A DNA stretch of 64,000 nucleotides from Streptococcus porcinus (GTDB lineage: Bacteria; Bacillota; Bacilli; Lactobacillales; Streptococcaceae). The position numbers and the translations under genes were made by a program. Below are positions 9,522 to 18,912 of the stretch, in pieces (position 1 is the first letter of the stretch; each line of letters starts with the position of its first letter). Where the stretch lies: the NCBI RefSeq assembly GCF_900475415.1, contig NZ_LS483388.1:139501-203500 (forward strand), in the 5' to 3' direction. The notes beneath the pieces were generated by a model. The model worked only from the letters and a program-made list of their open reading frames with translations, had not been told where the DNA came from and did not search any database.

Positions 9522-10295
9522 TTAAAAATAGCAATGAATCTGATGTTGAAGAAAAACTTGGCGATAATCTTCTAAATCTTCCGGATGATAGGCAGGTACG
9601 TCAGTCATTTGGTAGTCTCGTCCGAGGAGTTTGTATTTATTTTCGCCGAATTGATGGAAAGGTAATAATTGGACTTCACTGATTTCTAGTTGATTAAAAA
9701 GTTCTGAGAAGGCTTTAGCATCTTCTAAAGAATCATTAAAATTGGGGATGACAGGGATGCGTAGGACAATCTCTTTGCCCATTGCGAAGGCATAATGAAT
9801 GTTTTTGATAATCAGGTCATTGGTGACACCTGTCATTTTGCGATGCCTTACTTGGTTATAGTGCTTTAAGTCTGTATAGATGAAATCTACATACTGTATC
9901 AGATCAATAAATTGTTCATGTTTAGCATAAGCTGTTGTTTCAATGGCAGTATGGAGGCTTTTTTCTTTGGCAGCTTTGAGGATAGCCTTGGCGAAATCAT
10001 ATTGAGCAAAAATTTCACCACCAGATAAAGTTAAGCCACCGCCAGATTCTTCGTAAAAATCGAGATCTTTTAAAACGTCCTCGATGACCATATCAACTGT
10101 TTTAAGTTCCCCAACGGTCTCATAAGTTTGTCCGTCTGCTTTAAGCATCTGCTCGGGTTGTTTTTTTTGTGATTCTGGATTAGCACACCAGGGACAACGC
10201 AGGGGGCAACCTTTTAAAAAGACAGTTGTCCGAATACCCGGACCATCGTGGATACTAAAATGCTGAATATTAAAGACAATGCCTGATTCTGTCAT
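9522..10295 (-). CDS. pflC: Glycyl radical enzyme activase (radical SAM), PflA/PflC family
   Basis: A 257-residue radical SAM protein. The motif CPLRCPWC gives the CxxxCxxC triad for the SAM-binding 4Fe-4S cluster. The N-terminal FSIHDGPGIRTTVFLKG is a signature of glycyl radical activases, and GGGLTLSGGE follows for SAM binding. The role is to place a radical on the glycine of the glycyl radical enzyme encoded at 14645. It is shorter than activases with an added ferredoxin-like insert (about 300 residues), so it resembles the PflA-size class. It is divergent from the DeoR gene and shares its 125-base intergenic region. Confidence 0.9.
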   Translation of the reverse strand: MTESGIVFNIQHFSIHDGPGIRTTVFLKGCPLRCPWCANPESQKKQPEQMLKADGQTYETVGELKTVDMVIEDVLKDLDFYEESGGGLTLSGGEIFAQYDFAKAILKAAKEKSLHTAIETTAYAKHEQFIDLIQYVDFIYTDLKHYNQVRHRKMTGVTNDLIIKNIHYAFAMGKEIVLRIPVIPNFNDSLEDAKAFSELFNQLEISEVQLLPFHQFGENKYKLLGRDYQMTDVPAYHPEDLEDYRQVFLQHQIHCYF

Positions 10296-10374
10296 AGTTC
10301 AAAATCCTTTCCTAGTAATCTAATGATAGCAAATAAACGTAAATAAATCAATTACGTTCGTAAGCAGATTTATT

Positions 10375-10403
10375 TTTTCATTTCCTAAGAAACCTGATAT
10401 AAT
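10375..10403 (+). promoter_or_regulatory. Extended -10 promoter of the DeoR-family regulator
   Basis: TTTTCA (10375-10380), 17-bp spacer, TATAAT (10398-10403) preceded by TG-A, an extended -10. The start codon at 10421 is 17 bases beyond. Upstream, CGTAA and TTACG form a spaced inverted repeat (about 10337-10356) that could be an operator. Confidence 0.65.
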
Positions 10404-10420
10404 AGATGTTGAGGTGAATA

Positions 10421-11164
10421 ATGAACAGATTAGAGAAAATCATTCAATTGGTTTCGGACCATAAACGTATTGATGTTAACAGTTTATCAAAACATTTAGG
10501 AGTTTCGAAAGTAACCGTTCGAAAGGATCTAGATAAACTAGAGAGTAAAGGACTTTTACATCGAGAACATGGTTACGCCGTCTTAAATAGTGGTGATAAC
10601 TTAAATGTACGCTTGTCCTATAATTACAATATCAAACGGAAAATCGCAGAAAAAGCGGCCGAATTGGTTCAAGACAATGATACGATTATGATTGAATCGG
10701 GTTCAACTTGTGCATTATTAGCAGAGGTTCTTTGTCAGACTAAACGTAACATCAAAATCATTACCAATTCTTGTTTCATTGCTAATTTTCTAAGGCAATA
10801 TGATTCTTGTCAGATTATTCTATTAGGTGGCAATTATCAGCCTAATTCTGAGGTAACGGTCGGACCTTTACTTAAACAGATGGTTGATCTTTTCCATGTT
10901 GATCGGGTTTTTGCAGGAACGGATGGCTTTAGCCCTAAAATCGGTTTTATGTGTAAAGACATGATGCGTTGTGAAAGTGTACAATATATGGCGGATGCGG
11001 CGGAAGAAACGATTATTCTGACTGATTCTAGTAAGTTTTTAAAAGCTAGTCTGGTTCAACAGCTTAGCCTTGACCGGGTGGGGCGTGTCATTACTGATCA
11101 AAACCTTGATAAAGAGAGTCAACAACTGCTAAACTCCTTTGGGATTGTTTTAGACTATGTCTGA
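10421..11164 (+). CDS. DeoR-family transcriptional regulator
   Basis: A 247-residue protein with an N-terminal winged helix-turn-helix (residues about 5-55, with KHLGVSKVTVRKDLDKLESKG being the DeoR recognition region) and a C-terminal sugar-phosphate sensing domain with the family segments ESGSTCALLAE and TNSCFIANFL. DeoR proteins usually repress sugar genes and release DNA on binding a phosphorylated sugar. It is followed after 14 bases by the SorC gene, so the two regulators are probably co-transcribed. Its own target is unclear. Confidence 0.88.
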   Translation: MNRLEKIIQLVSDHKRIDVNSLSKHLGVSKVTVRKDLDKLESKGLLHREHGYAVLNSGDNLNVRLSYNYNIKRKIAEKAAELVQDNDTIMIESGSTCALLAEVLCQTKRNIKIITNSCFIANFLRQYDSCQIILLGGNYQPNSEVTVGPLLKQMVDLFHVDRVFAGTDGFSPKIGFMCKDMMRCESVQYMADAAEETIILTDSSKFLKASLVQQLSLDRVGRVITDQNLDKESQQLLNSFGIVLDYV

Positions 11165-11178
11165 TGGTGTAGGTGTCT

Positions 11179-12162
11179 ATGATGAGAGAAGAAAAGCGGC
11201 GCATGCTGGCTAAGCTAGCTTACTTATTTTATGTTGAGGGCAAAAGCCAGACACAGATTGCTGAGGAGACAGGAATTTATCGCACAACTGTTAGTCGTAT
11301 GCTGGCAAAGGCGAAAAAAGAAGGTATTGTTCGTATCGAGATTGCTGACTATGATACGCATCTGTTTGGTTTAGAAGAGTATGTTCGGCAAAAATATGGT
11401 TTGGAAAAAATTGATATTGTGCCAAACGATCCAGAGGATAGTCTAGCTAATACTCACAGTAAGGTTGCAAGAACAGCAGCTGAAGTTTTGCGTAATACGG
11501 TTAGAGATGGGGATAAAATTGGGATTGCTTGGGGAGCAACCTTGTCCAGTGTAATTGATGAGCTGGACCCTAAATCCATGACGGGTGTCTCTGTTTGTCC
11601 GCTTGCAGGTGGTCCTAGTCATATTAATGTCCAATTCCATGTTAATACCTTAGTTTACCGGCTGGCTAGAATTTTTCAAGGGAAGAGTACTTTTATTAAT
11701 GCTATGGCTGTGCAGGAGAATAAAGACCTTACTAATGGGATCTTACAGTCTAAATATTTTGAAAGTTTATTAGAAAGCTGGAATCAACTTGATTTAGCCA
11801 TAGTGGGGATTGGTGGCGAAGCGCATAGTGGGGAAAAAAGTCAGTGGCTTGATTTGTTAACCATTGCCGATTTTGAACAGTTAAAAAAGGAAGAGGCGGT
11901 AGGTGAAGTTTGTTGCCGCTTCTTTGATCAGTACGGTAATCCTGTTTATATAGGTTTACAAGAACGAACCATCGGTATTTCACTCAAGCAATTGGAACAG
12001 GTACCAAAAACGTTAGCAGTTGCAAGGGGAGCTTATAAAGCAAAGGCTATCTTGGCAGCACTGAAGGCAGGTTTTATTAACTATTTAGTGACAGATAAAG
12101 ATACTTTGATGCGTGTGTTAGAGTTAGATGATGATCTTGAAAACGTCAAACACTTTTGCTAA
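11179..12162 (+). CDS. SorC/DeoR-type sugar-binding transcriptional regulator
   Basis: A 327- to 329-residue regulator. It has a helix-turn-helix in residues about 15-50 (GKSQTQIAEETGIYRTTVSR) and a SorC sugar-phosphate-binding domain (RDGDKIGIAWGATLSS, AVARGAYKAKAILAAL). Proteins of this family bind phosphosugars and often activate their operons. Possible starts are GTG 11173 and ATG 11179 or 11182; AGGTG at 11171 favours the ATGs. It stands directly before the PTS/glycyl radical operon, whose two promoter regions share a palindrome that is the best candidate for its operator. Confidence 0.88.
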   Translation: MMREEKRRMLAKLAYLFYVEGKSQTQIAEETGIYRTTVSRMLAKAKKEGIVRIEIADYDTHLFGLEEYVRQKYGLEKIDIVPNDPEDSLANTHSKVARTAAEVLRNTVRDGDKIGIAWGATLSSVIDELDPKSMTGVSVCPLAGGPSHINVQFHVNTLVYRLARIFQGKSTFINAMAVQENKDLTNGILQSKYFESLLESWNQLDLAIVGIGGEAHSGEKSQWLDLLTIADFEQLKKEEAVGEVCCRFFDQYGNPVYIGLQERTIGISLKQLEQVPKTLAVARGAYKAKAILAALKAGFINYLVTDKDTLMRVLELDDDLENVKHFC

Positions 12163-12175
12163 AGGAATAAATGTT

Positions 12176-12205
12176 AAGTCTTGATGCTAATCAGGGCTTT
12201 TTTTT
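12176..12205 (+). terminator. Terminator after the SorC-family gene
   Basis: Stem AAGTCTTGAT (12176-12185) pairs with ATCAGGGCTT (12190-12199) through two wobble pairs, loop GCTA, then a run of T. It ends the regulator transcript before the PTS promoter. Confidence 0.75.
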
Positions 12206-12300
12206 GCGCAAAAGACTAGTTGATTTCTATTATTGGTTTCTGTCTTAGCATCTATTTGTTTAGGCACATAGTGAGGGTGTAAGTGATAAATAGTTAGTTG

Positions 12301-12320
12301 TTTGCACAAATGTGCACAAA
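12301..12320. promoter_or_regulatory. Palindromic operator upstream of the PTS genes
   Basis: TTTGCACAAATGTGCACAAA contains TGCAC-N4-GTGCA. The same core with longer arms recurs at 14517 before the glycyl radical enzyme gene and was not noticed elsewhere in the window. It lies about 22 bp upstream of the -35 at 12343, a position typical for an activator. The nearby SorC protein is the likeliest ligand; this is inference. Confidence 0.65.
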
Positions 12321-12342
12321 TAAAAAGATGGCACGATAGGCA

Positions 12343-12370
12343 TTGACCCTGATGGCAAAAATGCTAGAAT
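12343..12370 (+). promoter_or_regulatory. Promoter of the PTS operon
   Basis: TTGACC (12343-12348), 16-bp spacer, TAGAAT (12365-12370) preceded by TG-C (extended -10). A cre-like site begins 17 bases downstream, inside the leader. The leader to the IIA start at 12462 is about 85 bases. Confidence 0.65.
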
Positions 12371-12386
12371 AAAATTATAGGCGAAA

Positions 12387-12400
12387 GGAAAACGGTTACA
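12387..12400. promoter_or_regulatory. Candidate catabolite-responsive element (cre)
   Basis: GGAAAACGGTTACA matches the consensus TGWAANCGNTNWCA at 13 of 14 positions (first base differs). It lies just downstream of the probable transcription start, where CcpA binding would block transcription when glucose is present. Confidence 0.6.
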
Positions 12401-12461
12401 ATTGCAACTGTGAAACTTTCAAAAGAAAGCTATAACAAAGTAAAATAAGGAGATGAAAGAA

Positions 12462-12782
12462 ATGGAATTAATCGTACCTGATCAAATTATCATGGGTTTA
12501 ATTTTAAATGCTGGAGATGCCAAGCAGCATATCTATCAGGCTTTGAAGTTTGCAAAATCTAAGGACTATGAAAATAGTGAACGTGAAATGGCGCTTGCTG
12601 ACAATGCTCTATTAGAAGCACATAATTTGCAGACCCAGTTTTTAGCTCAGGAGGCGAGCGGGAATAAATCAGATATATCGGCTTTATTTGTCCATTCACA
12701 AGATCACTTGATGACAACCATTACTGAAATTAATTTGATTAAAGAAATTATTGATCTTCGTAAAGAATTAGCAACTAAGTAG
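12462..12782 (+). CDS. PTS lactose/cellobiose-family IIA component
   Basis: A 106-residue all-helical IIA of the lactose/cellobiose family, with VHSQDHLMTT containing the phospho-accepting histidine of the HxQDHLM motif. It passes phosphate from HPr to the IIB protein encoded next. The frame starts at 12453, but that ATG abuts AAGGAG; ATG 12462 has 9-nt spacing and begins MELIVPDQ. The family name reflects ancestry only. With the downstream enzymes the transported compound may be 1,5-anhydroglucitol or another polyol-like sugar. Confidence 0.9.
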   Translation: MELIVPDQIIMGLILNAGDAKQHIYQALKFAKSKDYENSEREMALADNALLEAHNLQTQFLAQEASGNKSDISALFVHSQDHLMTTITEINLIKEIIDLRKELATK

Positions 12783-12809
12783 ATTTAGAAATAACTAAAG
12801 GAGACAAAG

Positions 12810-13118
12810 ATGATGAAAATTGGTTTATTTTGTGCAGCAGGTTTTTCTACAGGGATGCTGGTTAACAATATGAAAGTAGCAGCTGAAAAAAGAGGAATAG
12901 AATGCCAGATAGAGGCTTATTCTCAAGGGAAATTGGCAGATTATGCTCCTCAGATTGATGTCGCTCTCTTAGGTCCTCAAGTTTCTTATACTTTAGAAAG
13001 CTCAGAAGCTATCTGTCAAGAACATGGTATTCCAATTGCAGTCATCCCGATGGCTGATTACGGGATGTTGGATGGTGAAAAAGTGCTTGACCTAGCCTTA
13101 GGTCTCGTTAAAGGATAG
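12810..13118 (+). CDS. PTS lactose/cellobiose-family IIB component
   Basis: A 102-residue IIB with the phosphocysteine loop LFCAAGFSTGML (Cys8) of the lactose/cellobiose family. It accepts phosphate from IIA and delivers it to the sugar bound to IIC. It starts 27 bases after the IIA gene behind AAAGGAGAC (ATG at 12810 or 12813) and lies 9 bases from the IIC gene. Confidence 0.9.
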   Translation: MMKIGLFCAAGFSTGMLVNNMKVAAEKRGIECQIEAYSQGKLADYAPQIDVALLGPQVSYTLESSEAICQEHGIPIAVIPMADYGMLDGEKVLDLALGLVKG

Positions 13119-13127
13119 GAGTCCAAG

Positions 13128-14429
13128 ATGGCCAAGATAAATACACAAAAAATCATTGCACCGATCATGACTTTTGTTAATATGAAAGGGATTATTGCTC
13201 TCAAAGATGGGATGCTTGCTATCTTGCCCTTAACAGTGGTCGGGAGTCTCTTTTTAATTGCTGGTCAGATACCATTTCAAGGTGTTAATGAAGCTATCGC
13301 AAAGGTTTTTGGTGAGAACTGGACAGAGCCATTCATGCAAGTTTACTCCGGTACTTTTGCTATTATGGGTTTGATTTCTTGTTTTGCTATTGCCTATTCC
13401 TACGCTAAAAATGCTGGTGTTGAACCCCTTCCTGCAGGTGTTCTATCATTATCTGCCTTCTTTATCTTATTAAGATCTTCCTATATTCCAGTAAAAGGAG
13501 AAGCTATCGCAGATGCCATTAGTAAGGTCTGGTTTGGTGGTCAAGGGATCATTGGATCCATTCTTATTGGGCTAGTTGTTGGCGCTATCTACACGGAATT
13601 TATCCGTCGGCATATAGTGATAAAAATGCCCCCGCAAGTGCCACAAGCTATTGCTAAGCAGTTTGAAGCAATGATTCCAGCTTTTGTTATTTTTACTTTG
13701 TCAATGATCGTCTATCTTATTGCAAAAGCTGTTACTGGCGGTGGAACGTTTATTGAGATGATTTACTCAGTGATACAAGTTCCTCTACAAGGACTAACAG
13801 GCTCCCTTTATGGTGCGATTGGTATTGCCTTCTTTATTTCATTCTTGTGGTGGTTTGGAGTACATGGGCAATCAGTAGTTAACGGAATCGTTACAGCCTT
13901 GCTGTTGTCGAATTTAGATGCTAATAAAGCCTTGCTTGCTGCCGACAAACTGACTTTAGAGAATGGCGCGCACATTGTGACTCAGCAATTTTTGGATTCT
14001 TTCCTAATTCTCTCAGGTTCAGGGATTACTTGTGGTTTAGTTATTGCGATGATAGTTGCTTCAAAATCAAAGCAGTATAAGGCTCTAGGTAAGGTGGCGG
14101 CATTTCCAGCACTTTTTAATGTAAATGAACCAGTGGTATTTGGCTTTCCAATTGTCATGAACCCAGTCATGTTTTTACCTTTTGTTCTGGTTCCTGTTTT
14201 GGCAGCACTACTTGTCTACGGTTCCATCTCAATCGGCTTTATGCAACCTTTTTCTGGAGTCACACTTCCTTGGTCGACTCCGGCGATTATCTCTGGCTTT
14301 ATGGTAGGTGGTTGGCAAGGGGCTCTTATCCAAATTCTTATTTTGATCTTGTCAACTATCATTTATTTCCCATTCTTTAAGGTTCAAGATAAAATTGCTT
14401 ATCAAAATGAATTATCCGCTGAGAATTAA
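13128..14429 (+). CDS. PTS lactose/cellobiose-family IIC permease
   Basis: A 433-residue polytopic membrane protein with about ten hydrophobic segments. It carries the IIC signature regions DGMLAILPLTVVGSLFLIAG, WWFGVHGQSVVNGIV and PALFNVNEPVVFGFPIV. The NEPV(V/I)FG segment is a substrate-site hallmark of this IIC family. It forms the sugar channel that couples uptake to phosphorylation by IIB. It is followed by a terminator, so the enzyme genes downstream use a second regulated promoter. Confidence 0.92.
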   Translation: MAKINTQKIIAPIMTFVNMKGIIALKDGMLAILPLTVVGSLFLIAGQIPFQGVNEAIAKVFGENWTEPFMQVYSGTFAIMGLISCFAIAYSYAKNAGVEPLPAGVLSLSAFFILLRSSYIPVKGEAIADAISKVWFGGQGIIGSILIGLVVGAIYTEFIRRHIVIKMPPQVPQAIAKQFEAMIPAFVIFTLSMIVYLIAKAVTGGGTFIEMIYSVIQVPLQGLTGSLYGAIGIAFFISFLWWFGVHGQSVVNGIVTALLLSNLDANKALLAADKLTLENGAHIVTQQFLDSFLILSGSGITCGLVIAMIVASKSKQYKALGKVAAFPALFNVNEPVVFGFPIVMNPVMFLPFVLVPVLAALLVYGSISIGFMQPFSGVTLPWSTPAIISGFMVGGWQGALIQILILILSTIIYFPFFKVQDKIAYQNELSAEN

Positions 14430-14461
14430 AACAAGTAAAAAGTTCCTTCATCTTTCTTAAG

Positions 14462-14490
14462 CCATCTCATTTTTAGAGATGGTTTTTTTT
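14462..14490 (+). terminator. Terminator after the IIC gene
   Basis: Stem CCATCTC (14462-14468) and GAGATGG (14476-14482), 7-base loop, then eight T. It separates the PTS transcript from the enzyme genes. Confidence 0.85.
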
Positions 14491-14516
14491 AAAATAAGGG
14501 ATGCGTCAGAAGGTAT

Positions 14517-14538
14517 ATTTTGCACAATCGTGCAAAAT
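14517..14538. promoter_or_regulatory. Perfect palindromic operator upstream of the glycyl radical enzyme
   Basis: ATTTTGCAC-AATC-GTGCAAAAT: 9-bp perfect arms around a 4-bp centre, the same TGCAC-N4-GTGCA core as at 12301. It is about 105 bases before the start codon. No strong -35 lies downstream, only weak -10-like TATGAT/TACTAT at 14587-14597, consistent with a promoter that needs an activator. Confidence 0.7.
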
Positions 14539-14644
14539 AAAATGAATCAATTCTCTTATCATTGGAGGCTTCAAAAGTCCTCTGAATATGATACTATAGT
14601 TACGAAGGAAAGTTTTTTTATTACGAAAGAAAAAGGAGAGGCAT

Positions 14645-17062
14645 ATGACTGACTTGAAACAATCTTATTTTGGTACACTTACTGATAGAATGAATAACTA
14701 TCGTGAAGCCGTTTTGACAAAAAAACCTTATATTGATGCTGAGCGTGCTATTCTTGTAACAGAAAGCTATCAAAAGCACATGGATAAACCTGCAAATCTT
14801 AAACGAGCTTACATGTTACAAAATATTTTGGAAAATATGTCTATCTATATTGAAGATGACAGTTTAATTGCAGGGAACCAGGCTTCCTCTAATAAAGATG
14901 CACCAATTTTCCCAGAATATACCTTAGATTTTGTGATTAAAGAATTAGATCTTTTTGAAAAACGAGACGGAGATGTCTTTTATATCACAGAAGAAACTAA
15001 GGAACAACTAAGGGCTATTGCTCCTTTCTGGGAAAATAATAATTTACGGGCACGAGCTGGTGTCCTTCTCCCGAAAGAAGTTGATGTTTATATGGAAACA
15101 GGCTTCTTTGGTATGGAAGGAAAGATGAATTCTGGGGATGCACACTTGGCAGTTAACTACCAAAAACTGCTTGAAGAAGGCTTAATCGGTTTTGAAAAAC
15201 GGGCCCGTGATGCTAAAGCTGCACTTGATTTGACCGTTCCAGAGAACATTTTTAAGTATCATTTTTACGACTCCGTCTTTATCGTCATTGATGCTGTTAA
15301 AACTTATGCAAAACGGTATGCTGACTTAGCACGTCATTTGGCCCAAAAAGCCGATGATGTCAGAAAAGAAGAACTTCTTGAAATCGCTAGGATTTGTGAT
15401 AAGGTGCCCTATCAGCCAGCAGAAACATTTGCTGAAGCGGTTCAATCTGTTTGGTTTATTCAATGTATCCTTCAAATTGAGTCTAATGGACACTCTTTAT
15501 CTTATGGCCGTTTTGACCAGTATATGTATCCCTATGTTAAAGCGGACTTGGAAGCGGGGCGTGAAACAGAGGCTTCTATTGTGGAACGCTTGACTAATCT
15601 TTGGATCAAGACTTTAACGATTAACAAAGTTCGTAGCCAGTCTCATACTTTCTCGTCAGCAGGTAGTCCTCTTTATCAAAATGTTACTATCGGTGGTCAA
15701 ACAAGAGATAAAAAGGATGCCGTTAACCCACTTTCTTATATGGTATTGCGCAGTGTTGCCCAGACAAAACTTCCACAACCGAACCTGACGGTTCGTTATC
15801 ATAAAGGATTAGACAAAAACTTTATGAATGACTGTATTGAAGTCATGAAGCTCGGTTTTGGAATGCCGGCCTTCAATAATGATGAAATTATCATTCCGTC
15901 CTTTATCAAAAAAGGTGTCTTGGAAGCAGATGCTTATGACTATTCTGCGATTGGCTGTGTTGAAACAGCAGTGCCAGGTAAGTGGGGATACCGTTGTACA
16001 GGGATGAGTTATATTAATTTCCCTAAAATTTTGCTTATTACCATGAATGATGGGATTGATCCATCATCTGGCAAACGATTTGCTAAGGGGCATGGACATT
16101 TTAAAGAGATGACTTCTTACAAAGAGTTGAAAGAGGCATTCGATGAAACGTTAAGGGAAATCACTCGTATGAGTGTCATTGTTGAGAATGCTATTGATCT
16201 CGGATTAGAATCAGAAGTGCCAGATATTCTTTGTTCAGCCTTAACAGATGATTGTATTGGCCGTGGTAAGACTTTGAAAGAAGGCGGAGCCGTTTATGAT
16301 TTTATCTCTGGCTTGCAAGTTGGTATCGCCAATCTGTCCGACTCCCTAGCGGCGCTGAAAAAATTAGTCTTCGAAGAAAACAAGTTAAGCACAGAAGAAT
16401 TGTGGCATGCTTTGGAAACTGACTTTGCTGGTGACCGAGGAGAAGAAATCCGACAAATGCTTATCAATGATGCACCAAAATATGGTAATGATGATGACTA
16501 TGCTGATCAGCTTGTTGTTGAAGCCTATGATACTTACATTGATGAAATCGCTAAATACCCTAATACACGATATAATCGTGGTCCAATTGGAGGTATTCGT
16601 TACTCAGGTACCTCATCTATTTCTGCTAACGTTGGTCAAGGTAAAGGCACCCTTGCAACACCGGATGGTAGACATGCCGGTACCCCTTTAGCAGAAGGAT
16701 GCTCCCCAGAGCACAGCATGGACAAGAAAGGCCCAACTTCTGTTCTTAAATCAGTTTCAAAATTACCGACAGAAGAAATTGTAGGTGGGGTTCTCTTAAA
16801 TCAAAAAGTAAATCCTCAAACTTTGGCCAAAGAAGAGGATAAAATGAAATTAGAGGCGCTTTTAAGAACATTCTTCAATCGTCTTCATGGCTACCACATT
16901 CAATACAATGTTGTCTCACGCGAGACCTTGATTGATGCTCAAAAAAATCCAGAAAAACACCGTGATTTGATTGTTCGTGTAGCAGGTTATTCAGCCTTCT
17001 TTAACGTTTTATCAAAAGCAACGCAAGATGACATTATAGAAAGAACAGAACACACACTATAG
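14645..17062 (+). CDS. pflD: Glycyl radical enzyme; likely 1,5-anhydroglucitol-6-phosphate lyase, not a true pyruvate-formate lyase
   Basis: An 805-residue glycyl radical enzyme. The thiyl-radical cysteine is Cys438 in [12 protein letters not shown], followed by Glu440, the C-x-E arrangement of the lyase/dehydratase branch. Pyruvate-formate lyase has a Cys-Cys pair, which is absent. The glycyl radical loop RVAGYSAFF places the radical at Gly781. Such genes are often labelled formate acetyltransferase 2. The neighbours (sugar PTS, FSA-type aldolase, GldA) match a reported pathway in which this enzyme opens 1,5-anhydroglucitol-6-phosphate to 1-deoxyfructose-6-phosphate; I cite that from memory. 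It is oxygen-sensitive and needs the activase encoded at 9522. The aldolase gene starts 14 bases after its stop. Confidence 0.85.
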
Positions 17063-17076
17063 GAGTAAACAAAACA

Positions 17077-17745
17077 ATGGAATATATGTTAGACACTTTA
17101 AACTTAGATGAGATAAGAAAGTGGAGCCGGATTTTACCACTGGCTGGAGTCACATCAAACCCAACAATTGCTAAAAAAGAAGGGGCTATTGATTTCTTTG
17201 AACGTATCCGAGAGGTGAGAGCTATCATTGGCGATAAGGCTTCTATTCATGTTCAGGTTGTGGCTCAAGATTATGATGGCATTTTGAAGGATGCAGAAGA
17301 AATCCGAAAACAGTGCGGTGACTCCATATATATTAAGGTTCCGGTAACTACAGAAGGTTTAGCGGCCATTAAAACTTTAAAGGCAAAAGGTTATCTTATT
17401 ACGGCAACTGCTATTTACACGACCTTTCAAGGACTTTTGGCAATAGCAGCTGGGGCCGACTATCTAGCCCCTTACTATAATCGTATGGAAAATCTTAATA
17501 TTGACCCTGCAGTTGTGATTAGACAGCTTGCGGAAGCTATTGACCGTGATTTCTCAGAAAGCAAAATTTTAGCAGCTAGTTTTAAAAATGTAGGTCAGAT
17601 TAATCAAGCCTTTTCTCAAGGAGCCCAAGCCGTTACAGCTGGTCCAGACGTCTTTGAAGCTGGCTTTGCGATGCCATCAATTCAAAAAGCAGTTGATGAT
17701 TTTAGTAAAGATTGGGTTGATAACTACGGCAAGGAAATAATTTAA
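17077..17745 (+). CDS. Fructose-6-phosphate aldolase/transaldolase-like protein (FSA/MipB/TalC family)
   Basis: A 222-residue TIM-barrel of the short transaldolase family. The N-terminus has [13 protein letters not shown], and the Schiff-base lysine is Lys87 in SIYIKVPVT. Members cleave fructose-6-phosphate-like ketoses without a cofactor. Here the likely substrate is 1-deoxyfructose-6-phosphate, giving glyceraldehyde-3-phosphate and hydroxyacetone. That is inferred from the gene order glycyl radical enzyme, aldolase, GldA. It is too short for a classical pentose-phosphate transaldolase (about 320 residues). It follows the glycyl radical enzyme gene by 14 bases and is surely in the same transcript. 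Confidence 0.88.
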
Positions 17746-17817
17746 GTCATAGCTGATATGAGAATTAGTCTAGATAAAAACTTAAACAATGCTATTAAAT
17801 AGAAACGAGGACTTATC

Positions 17818-18912
17818 ATGAAAATTTTTGCGAGCCCATCACGTTATATCCAAGGAAAAAATGCTCTCTTTGAAAATCATAAAGTTATTCTAAAGCTTGG
17901 AACTAAACCAATATTACTTTGCGACGATACTGTTTATCAGATTATTGGTAAGGATTTTGAAGACTATCTCCATAGACAAGGCATACTAGCAGACCGTGTC
18001 CATTTTAATGGTGAAGCATCTGACAATGAAATTAAACGTGTTGTTGCAATCGCTAAGGAACAAAATAATGATTTAATCATTGGATTGGGCGGAGGTAAAA
18101 CTATTGATAGTGCCAAAGCTATCTCAGATGAGTTAGGTGTTCCTGTTGTTATTGCACCGACTGTAGCTTCCACAGATGCTCCGACGTCTGCCTTATCAGT
18201 TATCTATACGGATGAGGGGGCTTTTGAAAAATACATTTTTTATGCTAAGAATCCTGACTTAGTCATTGTTGATACACAAGTTATCTGCCAAGCTCCAAAA
18301 AGACTTTTGGCCTCTGGTATTGCAGATGGTCTAGCAACTTGGGTTGAAGCGAGAGCGGTTTTACAAAAAAATGGTGAGACAATGGCTGGAGGCCATCAGT
18401 CCTTAGCAGGTATTGCGATTGCCAAAGCTTGTGAAGAAACGCTCTTTGCCGATGGATTAGAAGCGATGGCTAGTTGTGAGCAAAAAATAGTGACCAAAGC
18501 CTTGGACAATGTTGTAGAAGCAAATACTTTACTCAGTGGCTTAGGGTTTGAAAGTGCCGGTCTAGCTGCCGCTCACGCTATTCACAATGGCTTTACAGCA
18601 TTAGAAGGGGATATTCATCATTTGACTCACGGTGAAAAAGTTGCTTATGGCACTTTGACCCAGCTCTTCTTAGAAAATCGTCCTAAAGAGGAGATTAATA
18701 AGTACATTTATTTCTACCAAGCGATTGGTATGCCGACAAGTCTAAAAGAATTGCATTTAGACAATGCTAGCTATGAAGACCTCTTGAAAGTTGGTCAACA
18801 AGCAACAATAGCTGGTGAAACAATCCATCAAATGCCATTTGTTATCACGGCAGAAGATGTCGCCGCTGCCCTTCTTGCAGTGGATGCCTATGTCAAAAAT
18901 CTTACTCGCTAG
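17818..18912 (+). CDS. gldA: Glycerol dehydrogenase family protein (GldA)
   Basis: A 364-residue iron/zinc-type dehydrogenase of the GldA group. The NAD-binding GLGGGKTIDSAKA is near residues 90-103. Metal ligands are seen in the DAPTSALSVIY region, in AAHAIHNGFT and in HLTHGEKVAYG. GldA oxidises glycerol to dihydroxyacetone but also reduces hydroxyacetone to 1,2-propanediol. In this operon the reductive role would regenerate NAD+ during anaerobic growth on the PTS substrate. It lies 72 bases after the aldolase gene with a CGAGGA ribosome site and is the last gene of the cluster. Confidence 0.92.
   Translation: MKIFASPSRYIQGKNALFENHKVILKLGTKPILLCDDTVYQIIGKDFEDYLHRQGILADRVHFNGEASDNEIKRVVAIAKEQNNDLIIGLGGGKTIDSAKAISDELGVPVVIAPTVASTDAPTSALSVIYTDEGAFEKYIFYAKNPDLVIVDTQVICQAPKRLLASGIADGLATWVEARAVLQKNGETMAGGHQSLAGIAIAKACEETLFADGLEAMASCEQKIVTKALDNVVEANTLLSGLGFESAGLAAAHAIHNGFTALEGDIHHLTHGEKVAYGTLTQLFLENRPKEEINKYIYFYQAIGMPTSLKELHLDNASYEDLLKVGQQATIAGETIHQMPFVITAEDVAAALLAVDAYVKNLTR

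Follow-up and report, generated by a model that had tools for sequence, protein, structure and literature searches.

A predicted anhydroglycolysis operon for 1,5-anhydroglucitol in Streptococcus porcinus and related streptococci

Anhydroglycolysis was described in 2024 (Ma et al., JACS, as cited in PMC12441222 and PMC12507026). The glycyl radical enzymes (GREs) YbiW and PflD cleave 1,5-anhydroglucitol-6-phosphate (AG6P) and 1,5-anhydromannitol-6-phosphate (AM6P), respectively, to 1-deoxyfructose-6-phosphate, after phosphorylation of 1,5-anhydroglucitol (AG) or 1,5-anhydromannitol (AM) by a phosphotransferase system (PTS) (PMC12441222). The stretch analysed here, a window of 64,000 nucleotides from the 2.03 Mb single-contig genome of Streptococcus porcinus (contig NZ_LS483388.1), contains a cluster of nine genes at window positions 9522-18912, in which a GRE is accompanied by its activase, a Lac-family PTS, an FSA-type aldolase, a GldA-type dehydrogenase and two regulators. 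In the described pathway, FSA reportedly cleaves 1-deoxyfructose-6-phosphate and GldA is said to reduce the resulting hydroxyacetone. Homology, gene context and regulation together predict that the cluster is very probably a complete, self-regulated anhydroglycolysis operon for AG; the pathway itself is already known, and the cluster adds another instance of it.

The window GRE is most likely an AG6P lyase of the YbiW type, a prediction from identity, loop motifs and phylogeny. A sequence-only reading of this DNA had pointed to Cys438-x-Glu440 and Gly781 and, from the lack of a Cys-Cys pair, had concluded that the enzyme is not a pyruvate-formate lyase (PFL). Both points hold: the residues are invariant in alignments of 16 and of 20 sequences, and the C-x-E loop (Cys438-Val-Glu440) has a single cysteine versus the SCISCC of the PFL encoded in the same genome. 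The C-x-E thiyl loop and the glycyl radical site (Gly781, within RVAGYSA) are common to other GREs, and are necessary for the YbiW type but not specific to it. The best PDB matches are three YbiW-type chains (903, 893 and 893 bits; two carry the name YbiW, the 903-bit chain that of formate C-acetyltransferase), followed by glycerol dehydratase (607 bits), 9rco (563 bits), diol dehydratase (546 bits) and PflD (489 bits). The enzyme is 52.3% identical to E. coli YbiW versus 38.1% to E. coli PflD, and among the matches listed the closest named GRE is that of S. bovimastitidis (93% identity). Six loops were compared with those of YbiW, PflD, glycerol dehydratase, 9rco, a Pdu-type GRE, CutC and PFL, and four of the six carry motifs that the window enzyme has in common with YbiW and that are missing in all other GREs compared. 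The YbiW-specific features include GDAH (mostly GxGH in the others), SAGSPLYQN, a 16-residue motif after the C-x-E loop that contains YRCTGMS (GWHD in glycerol dehydratase, YGLHD in PflD) and an RGP(I/V) insert. QIESNGHS, partly common to glycerol dehydratase, and RVAGYSA, common to most GREs, are not counted as evidence for the YbiW type because they are found in other GREs as well.

In a tree of 35 sequences, comprising among others 23 of the 81 GREs from loci L015-L094 and L098, picked across the identity range, and leaving out PFL, L099, L100, L096 and the first GRE of L063, YbiW and the 24 sequences of the window clade group together (100/100, inner branch 1.98) apart from all others; a long-branch warning for YbiW is still raised for this tree. 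An earlier tree of 46 sequences, with 29 of the 81 GREs and the genome's own PFL and with long branches flagged, gives the split from 14 other GREs likewise at 100/100, and the very long PFL branch joined the window side of its midpoint root. The sequence-only reading had named clustering with glycerol, choline or other dehydratases as the outcome that would speak against it; the enzyme groups instead with YbiW (100/100), apart from glycerol dehydratase, the Pdu-type GRE, CutC and PflD, and it has the YbiW-specific motifs and insert. Four other family assignments were tried and rejected: PFL (186.5 bits against the NCBIfam PFL model, with a cut-off of 994, and no adjacent catalytic Cys-Cys pair); the PflD type (TDKGQGH, QYESNASS and TYGLHD missing, no grouping with PflD in the tree); the B12-independent glycerol or diol dehydratase (no grouping with 1r8w, and GWHD missing after the C-x-E loop); and the CutC type (by motifs and tree).

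The remaining genes complete the anhydroglycolysis set (PTS, activase, GRE, FSA-type aldolase and GldA), and NCBIfam and Pfam profile searches of the window proteins place all of those named by the sequence-only reading around the GRE (Table 1); the DeoR-family and SorC-family regulators and the operator-like sites in the cluster go beyond it. The Schiff-base lysine of the aldolase, Lys87, is likewise confirmed by alignment with E. coli FsaA and FsaB, where K87, D6, N28, N135-R136 and the LAASFK stretch align with the active site, residues that we take to be the ones that matter for catalysis. The best PDB matches of the aldolase are FSA enzymes, and it has two relatives in the genome (35% and 31% identity). 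GldA is 48% identical to the E. coli enzyme, with no further match elsewhere in the genome (E <= 0.001). The activase is a short form, with no cysteine between CxxxCxxC and GGGLTLSGGE versus six in YbiY and four in PflC. Two activase forms accompany this one GRE family: the short form, with 0-1 cysteines, accounts for 30 of 71 sequences, mostly from Lactobacillales, and a long form, with at least six, for 18 of the 71, while five lie between and 18 are not parsable.

In the predicted pathway, the Lac-family PTS (IIA, IIB and IIC) would import AG and phosphorylate it to AG6P. By analogy with YbiW, the activase would use S-adenosylmethionine to set a radical on Gly781, to be passed to Cys438, and the GRE would then open the ring of AG6P to yield 1-deoxyfructose-6-phosphate; the published order of events, first phosphorylation by the PTS and then radical opening of the 6-phosphate (PMC12441222), is the one that the sequence-only reading had set out. 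The aldolase would cleave this product through a Schiff base on Lys87 to glyceraldehyde-3-phosphate and hydroxyacetone, and GldA would reduce hydroxyacetone to 1,2-propanediol, re-oxidising the NADH formed by glyceraldehyde-3-phosphate dehydrogenase. One glyceraldehyde-3-phosphate yields one NADH, and GldA uses one. Because this NADH would be spent by GldA, pyruvate presumably needs a redox-neutral exit; the predicted one here is the genome's separate, genuine PFL. The pathway reading made from the sequence is thus supported by homology, context and regulation, and the prediction judged most likely is that the operon lets these streptococci live without oxygen on AG.

The pathway genes are inherited together among 197 Streptococcus genomes (Fisher tests, which ignore relatedness; a gene interrupted by an in-frame stop still counts as present). 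A YbiW-type GRE is present in 63 of the genomes; 66 matched, three with only 34-38% identity were dropped, and fragments in G035, G128, G131 and G216 were kept. An orthologue of the Lac-family IIC (E <= 1e-180) occurs in 53 genomes, all 53 GRE-positive (p 3e-38). The aldolase (at least 65% identity) occurs in 63 genomes, 62 of them GRE-positive, which is to say in 62 of the 63 GRE-positive genomes (p 3e-49), and in 70 if the identity cut is omitted (62 GRE-positive, 8 GRE-negative). GldA (E <= 1e-100) is present in 64 genomes, 54 GRE-positive and 10 GRE-negative (p 1.6e-28). In G216 the GRE matches lie in three pieces in different frames (L106:7472-9866), so that the gene looks broken or misassembled. 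Nine genomes (G015, G021, G093, G129, G143, G153, G182, G187 and G204) are listed with a GRE of 34-36% identity; the one compared (G204, L105) groups with CutC by loops and tree.

A wider count covers the 81 loci L015-L094 and L098, searched from about -9 to +6 kb; it is preferred to a count of 92 loci, in which some were repeated. A scan of neighbouring proteins covered, among others, an M20 peptidase, a lactonase and an ammonium transporter. In S. bovimastitidis, a 422-amino-acid open reading frame with three RidA-like (Ribonuc_L-PSP) stretches (L015:8534-9799) replaces the PTS between SorC and the GRE, with sugar ABC transporter genes downstream of the aldolase.

Regulation ties the genes together further. 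The pattern TTGCACANNNGTGCA has just two perfect matches in the chromosome, TTTGCACAAATGTGCACA at 12301 and TTTGCACAATCGTGCAAA at 14519; a further three places differ from it at one position, and a reversed control pattern has one match. The palindrome GCACN4GTGC precedes the GRE in 20 of 80 loci (one of the 81 is cut too near the GRE start), versus a background of 0.013 per 360 bp, and it does so in 12 of the 15 loci with a detected SorC gene versus 8 of the 65 without. Six of these eight were traced to their genomes (L077 and L098 were left out), and a SorC orthologue (44-54% identity) was found in all six, on another contig in five and at the same locus in one (L029, whose match, L114, falls in two frames); among four palindrome-negative control genomes, a SorC orthologue (43%) occurs in one, a second has just a 32% relative, and the other two have none. 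Four genomes (L110-L113) carry SorC, then the palindrome, then FSA on a contig other than that of the GRE, and in these the GRE locus has a palindrome of its own and no FSA nearby. In L114 SorC stands before the palindrome and the Lac-family PTS; in L109 it comes with a palindrome, and the other genes searched for are missing. A like palindrome precedes IIA in 10 of 11 loci, and is absent upstream of the activase (0 of 10 loci) and upstream of SorC (0 of 9). SorC, the PTS, the GRE and the aldolase thus seem to form a single regulon, including where they are unlinked. Comparative genomics thereby suggests that SorC senses a sugar phosphate of the pathway and works through the GCACN4GTGC sites upstream of IIA and the GRE, which are candidate operators. 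DeoR may act at separate tandem repeats: TTACGAARGAAA-like repeats at 14600-14632 recur, with variation, in 12 aligned streptococcal sequences upstream of the GRE, and form a candidate DeoR (PflR) site. This assignment agrees with the PflR sites reported upstream of SP0245, SP0246 and SP0251 in S. pneumoniae (PMC3302838).

Table 1. Genes and candidate regulatory sites of the cluster, in window coordinates
Feature	Position	Strand	Evidence
Glycyl-radical-enzyme activase (radical SAM, 257 aa)	9522..10295	-	TIGR02494, 289 bits; divergent from remaining cluster
DeoR-family regulator, in the position of pneumococcal SP0246	10421..11164	+	PF00455, PF08220; gene order per PMC3302838
SorC-family sugar-binding regulator	11173..12162	+	PF04198, 240 bits; orthologues track palindrome
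Operator-like palindrome TTTGCACAAATGTGCACA upstream of IIA	12301..12318	.	Exact match to TTGCACANNNGTGCA
PTS Lac-family EIIA	12453..12782	+	PF02255
PTS Lac-family EIIB	12810..13118	+	PF02302
PTS Lac-family EIIC, predicted 1,5-anhydroglucitol permease	13128..14429	+	TIGR00410, 369 bits
Operator-like palindrome TTTGCACAATCGTGCAAA upstream of GRE	14519..14536	.	Exact match to TTGCACANNNGTGCA
Tandem TTACGAAGGAAAG / TTACGAAAGAAA repeats, 21 bp apart, candidate DeoR-type (PflR) site	14600..14632	+	Kept with variation in streptococci
GRE, 805 aa, predicted 1,5-anhydroglucitol-6-phosphate lyase (YbiW type)	14645..17062	+	C438, E440, G781; identity, loops, tree
FSA-type aldolase, 222 aa, predicted 1-deoxyfructose-6-phosphate aldolase	17077..17745	+	NF009299, 412 bits; Schiff-base K87
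GldA-type dehydrogenase, 364 aa, predicted hydroxyacetone reductase (to 1,2-propanediol)	17818..18912	+	NF006941, 548 bits

In S. anginosus KH1 grown in heat-treated human plasma with glucose, relative to artificial saliva, IIA, IIB and IIC are raised 33-, 49- and 30-fold, and the GRE, FSA and GldA genes 146-, 104- and 122-fold; the activase and the regulators are missing from the published table, which lists loci raised at least 10-fold (PMC12282319). In S. anginosus J4206, another strain (L035), the palindrome lies before IIA and before the GRE, upstream of the corresponding six genes, and not before the activase or SorC. We hypothesise that plasma AG is the inducer of these six genes. Carolacton lowers the expression of SP0248-0253 jointly in S. 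pneumoniae (PMC4939601).

Several observations weigh against the operon prediction. YbiW sits on a long branch (1.66) outside the window clade of 24 sequences (92/97), so that the transfer of function spans a real distance, and none of the clade's members is, to our knowledge, characterised. Among the 63 GRE-positive streptococci, 10 lack the Lac-family IIC and nine lack GldA, and five of the GldA copies counted as present hold one in-frame stop (G076, G135, G194, G219 and G015, beside the operon), which hints that the reductase step is perhaps being lost in places. At the 81 loci of the wider count, FSA is found in 45, PTS IIC in 14 and a ROK-family kinase in 12, and 55 have neither PTS nor ROK by the queries used, many of them being cut by contig ends. 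The plasma and saliva media differ in many respects, the plasma medium holds added glucose, and the cultures are described at 10% CO2, with the word anaerobic absent from PMC12282319. None of the 81 loci carries both PTS IIC and a ROK kinase, from which it appears that either could supply the 6-phosphate. ROK kinases stand beside YbiW-type GREs with no detected PTS in L038, L049, L053, L056, L057, L065, L078, L082, L085, L086 and L090, in L057 and L085 together with RbsC-type ABC transporters; such loci possibly represent an AG kinase route.

The best-surviving alternative, although an improbable one, is that the window GRE acts on AM6P, as PflD does, with the other steps of the pathway unchanged. 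Since YbiW and PflD give the same product (PMC12441222), the aldolase and GldA cannot discriminate AG from AM. The window enzyme has the YbiW motifs, whereas streptococcal PflD-type enzymes (59-61% identical to E. coli PflD) are separate from it and occur with a Frw-type PTS as in E. coli (L101, L103 and L104). Locus L101 (genome G182, L101:637-16721) carries both GRE types side by side: it begins with the activase, DeoR, SorC, Lac-family IIA-IIB-IIC, a YbiW-type GRE and a second SorC, continues with a Frw-type IIA (29% identical to the end of PtsA), IIB (59% to FrwB) and IIC (49% to FrwC), and ends with a PflD-type GRE (60% to E. coli PflD), an activase, FSA and GldA, so that the two modules share one aldolase and one GldA; palindromes lie before IIA, the first GRE, the Frw-type PTS and the second GRE. 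A Frw-type PTS is also present at the PflD-type loci L103 and L104. In L075, which has both GRE types, a FrwC-like gene lies about 2 kb downstream of the PflD-type GRE, and in L115 a PflD-type GRE occurs with SorC and FSA and with no Frw gene in the stretch fetched. Genome G065 likewise carries a PflD-like GRE. In the loci seen, the transporter type thus follows the GRE type, which fits the prediction from E. coli that Lac-PTS with YbiW means AG and Frw-PTS with PflD means AM, and the paired locus favours AG over AM for the window GRE.

Likewise improbable, and slightly less probable still, is a YbiW-type clade whose specificity has shifted to another anhydrohexitol 6-phosphate or a related cyclic ether phosphate that still gives a ketose phosphate for the FSA-type aldolase. 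The 52% identity and long branch to YbiW leave room for such a shift, the Lac-family PTS belongs to a family otherwise known for beta-glycosides, and the GRE locus of Enterococcus gilvus adjoins alpha-glucosidase and alpha-galactosidase genes; the window GRE, however, retains the YbiW-specific motifs, and its conserved partner is FSA, an enzyme whose stereochemistry suits fructose-configured substrates. On the E. gilvus megaplasmid (L098:1-4741), the genes beside the GRE locus encode an alpha-galactosidase, an alpha-glucosidase and an aldo/keto reductase, which possibly release AG from glycosides.

A glycerol or 1,2-propanediol dehydratase acting with GldA is very unlikely. The subfamily label (PFL2/glycerol dehydratase, TIGR01774), the GldA gene adjoining the GRE and the IESNGHS motif common to glycerol dehydratase all speak for it, but glycerol dehydratase and the Pdu-type GRE stand apart from the window enzyme in the tree, both of them have GxGH and GWHD where it has GDAH and YRCTGMS, no gene for a microcompartment or an aldehyde dehydrogenase is among the nine of the cluster, in contrast to the Pdu GRE locus, and the sugar PTS and FSA would be left unexplained. 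A second PFL, the usual annotation and mixed-acid-fermentation reading with its historic precedent in pneumococcal SP0251 (PMC3302838), can practically be dismissed in view of the missing Cys-Cys pair, the PFL model score far under its cut-off and the genuine PFL, with SCISCC, elsewhere in the chromosome (C1:1760359-1761969).

If the window GRE is the AG6P lyase that we predict, the consequences reach beyond S. porcinus. We lean towards the view that the orphan Lac-family PTS, the counterpart of SP0248-50, is a dedicated AG importer under a SorC regulon responsive to the AG pathway, so that roughly one streptococcal species in three (the GRE is present in 63 of 197 genomes) would draw carbon from the AG of host blood and secretions, and that some species have two parallel branches, Lac-PTS with a YbiW-type GRE for AG and Frw-PTS with a PflD-type GRE for AM, that meet at one aldolase and GldA. 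A literature search, which did not extend to the original 2024 pathway paper, found, among the papers listed, no tie of any Streptococcus to AG catabolism; nor did it meet, within the same limit, the points added here, namely a Lac-family PTS dedicated to AG, a SorC regulon marked by the palindrome and a locus that pairs AG with AM. In many streptococci a specific, testable function would replace the widespread wrong label of second PFL. A substrate is also proposed for a conserved PTS (pneumococcal SP0248-9-50) to which Table 1 of a systematic survey assigns no substrate or phenotype (PMC3302838), and a simple reading is offered for the large plasma-induced expression change (PMC12282319). 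AG, a sugar alcohol, occurs in food and blood, and human plasma and saliva contain it (PMC12849494). Two inherited forms of neutropenia involve harm done by its 6-phosphate (PMC12441222); bacterial use of AG is of medical interest for these reasons.

Among known systems, the B12-independent glycerol dehydratase (1r8w) resembles the window GRE in superfamily, C-x-E loop and IESNGHS motif, but lies apart in the tree and has GWHD after the C-x-E loop where the window enzyme and YbiW have YRCTGMS. The PflD/PflC/FrwBC/FsaB/GldA cluster of E. coli, which encodes the AM6P lyase, likewise has PTS, GRE, activase, FSA and GldA genes near each other, but its GRE is only 38% identical and has other motifs, and its PTS is of the Frw type versus the Lac type in the window. 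The YbiW/YbiY/FsaA system of E. coli has a GRE 52% identical to that of the window, with the same motifs and insert, and the same partners, an FSA-type aldolase and an activase; it differs in that ybiWY-fsaA has no adjacent PTS gene, whereas the window has one cluster with a Lac-family PTS, GldA, DeoR and SorC, and in that the window activase is without the cysteine-rich ferredoxin-like insert of YbiY. The SP0245-SP0253 locus of S. pneumoniae, with PTS-Lac SP0248-9-50 and PflR, has, as described in PMC3302838, the same gene set and order as the window cluster, but is annotated there as a pyruvate formate lyase locus and tied to mixed-acid fermentation.

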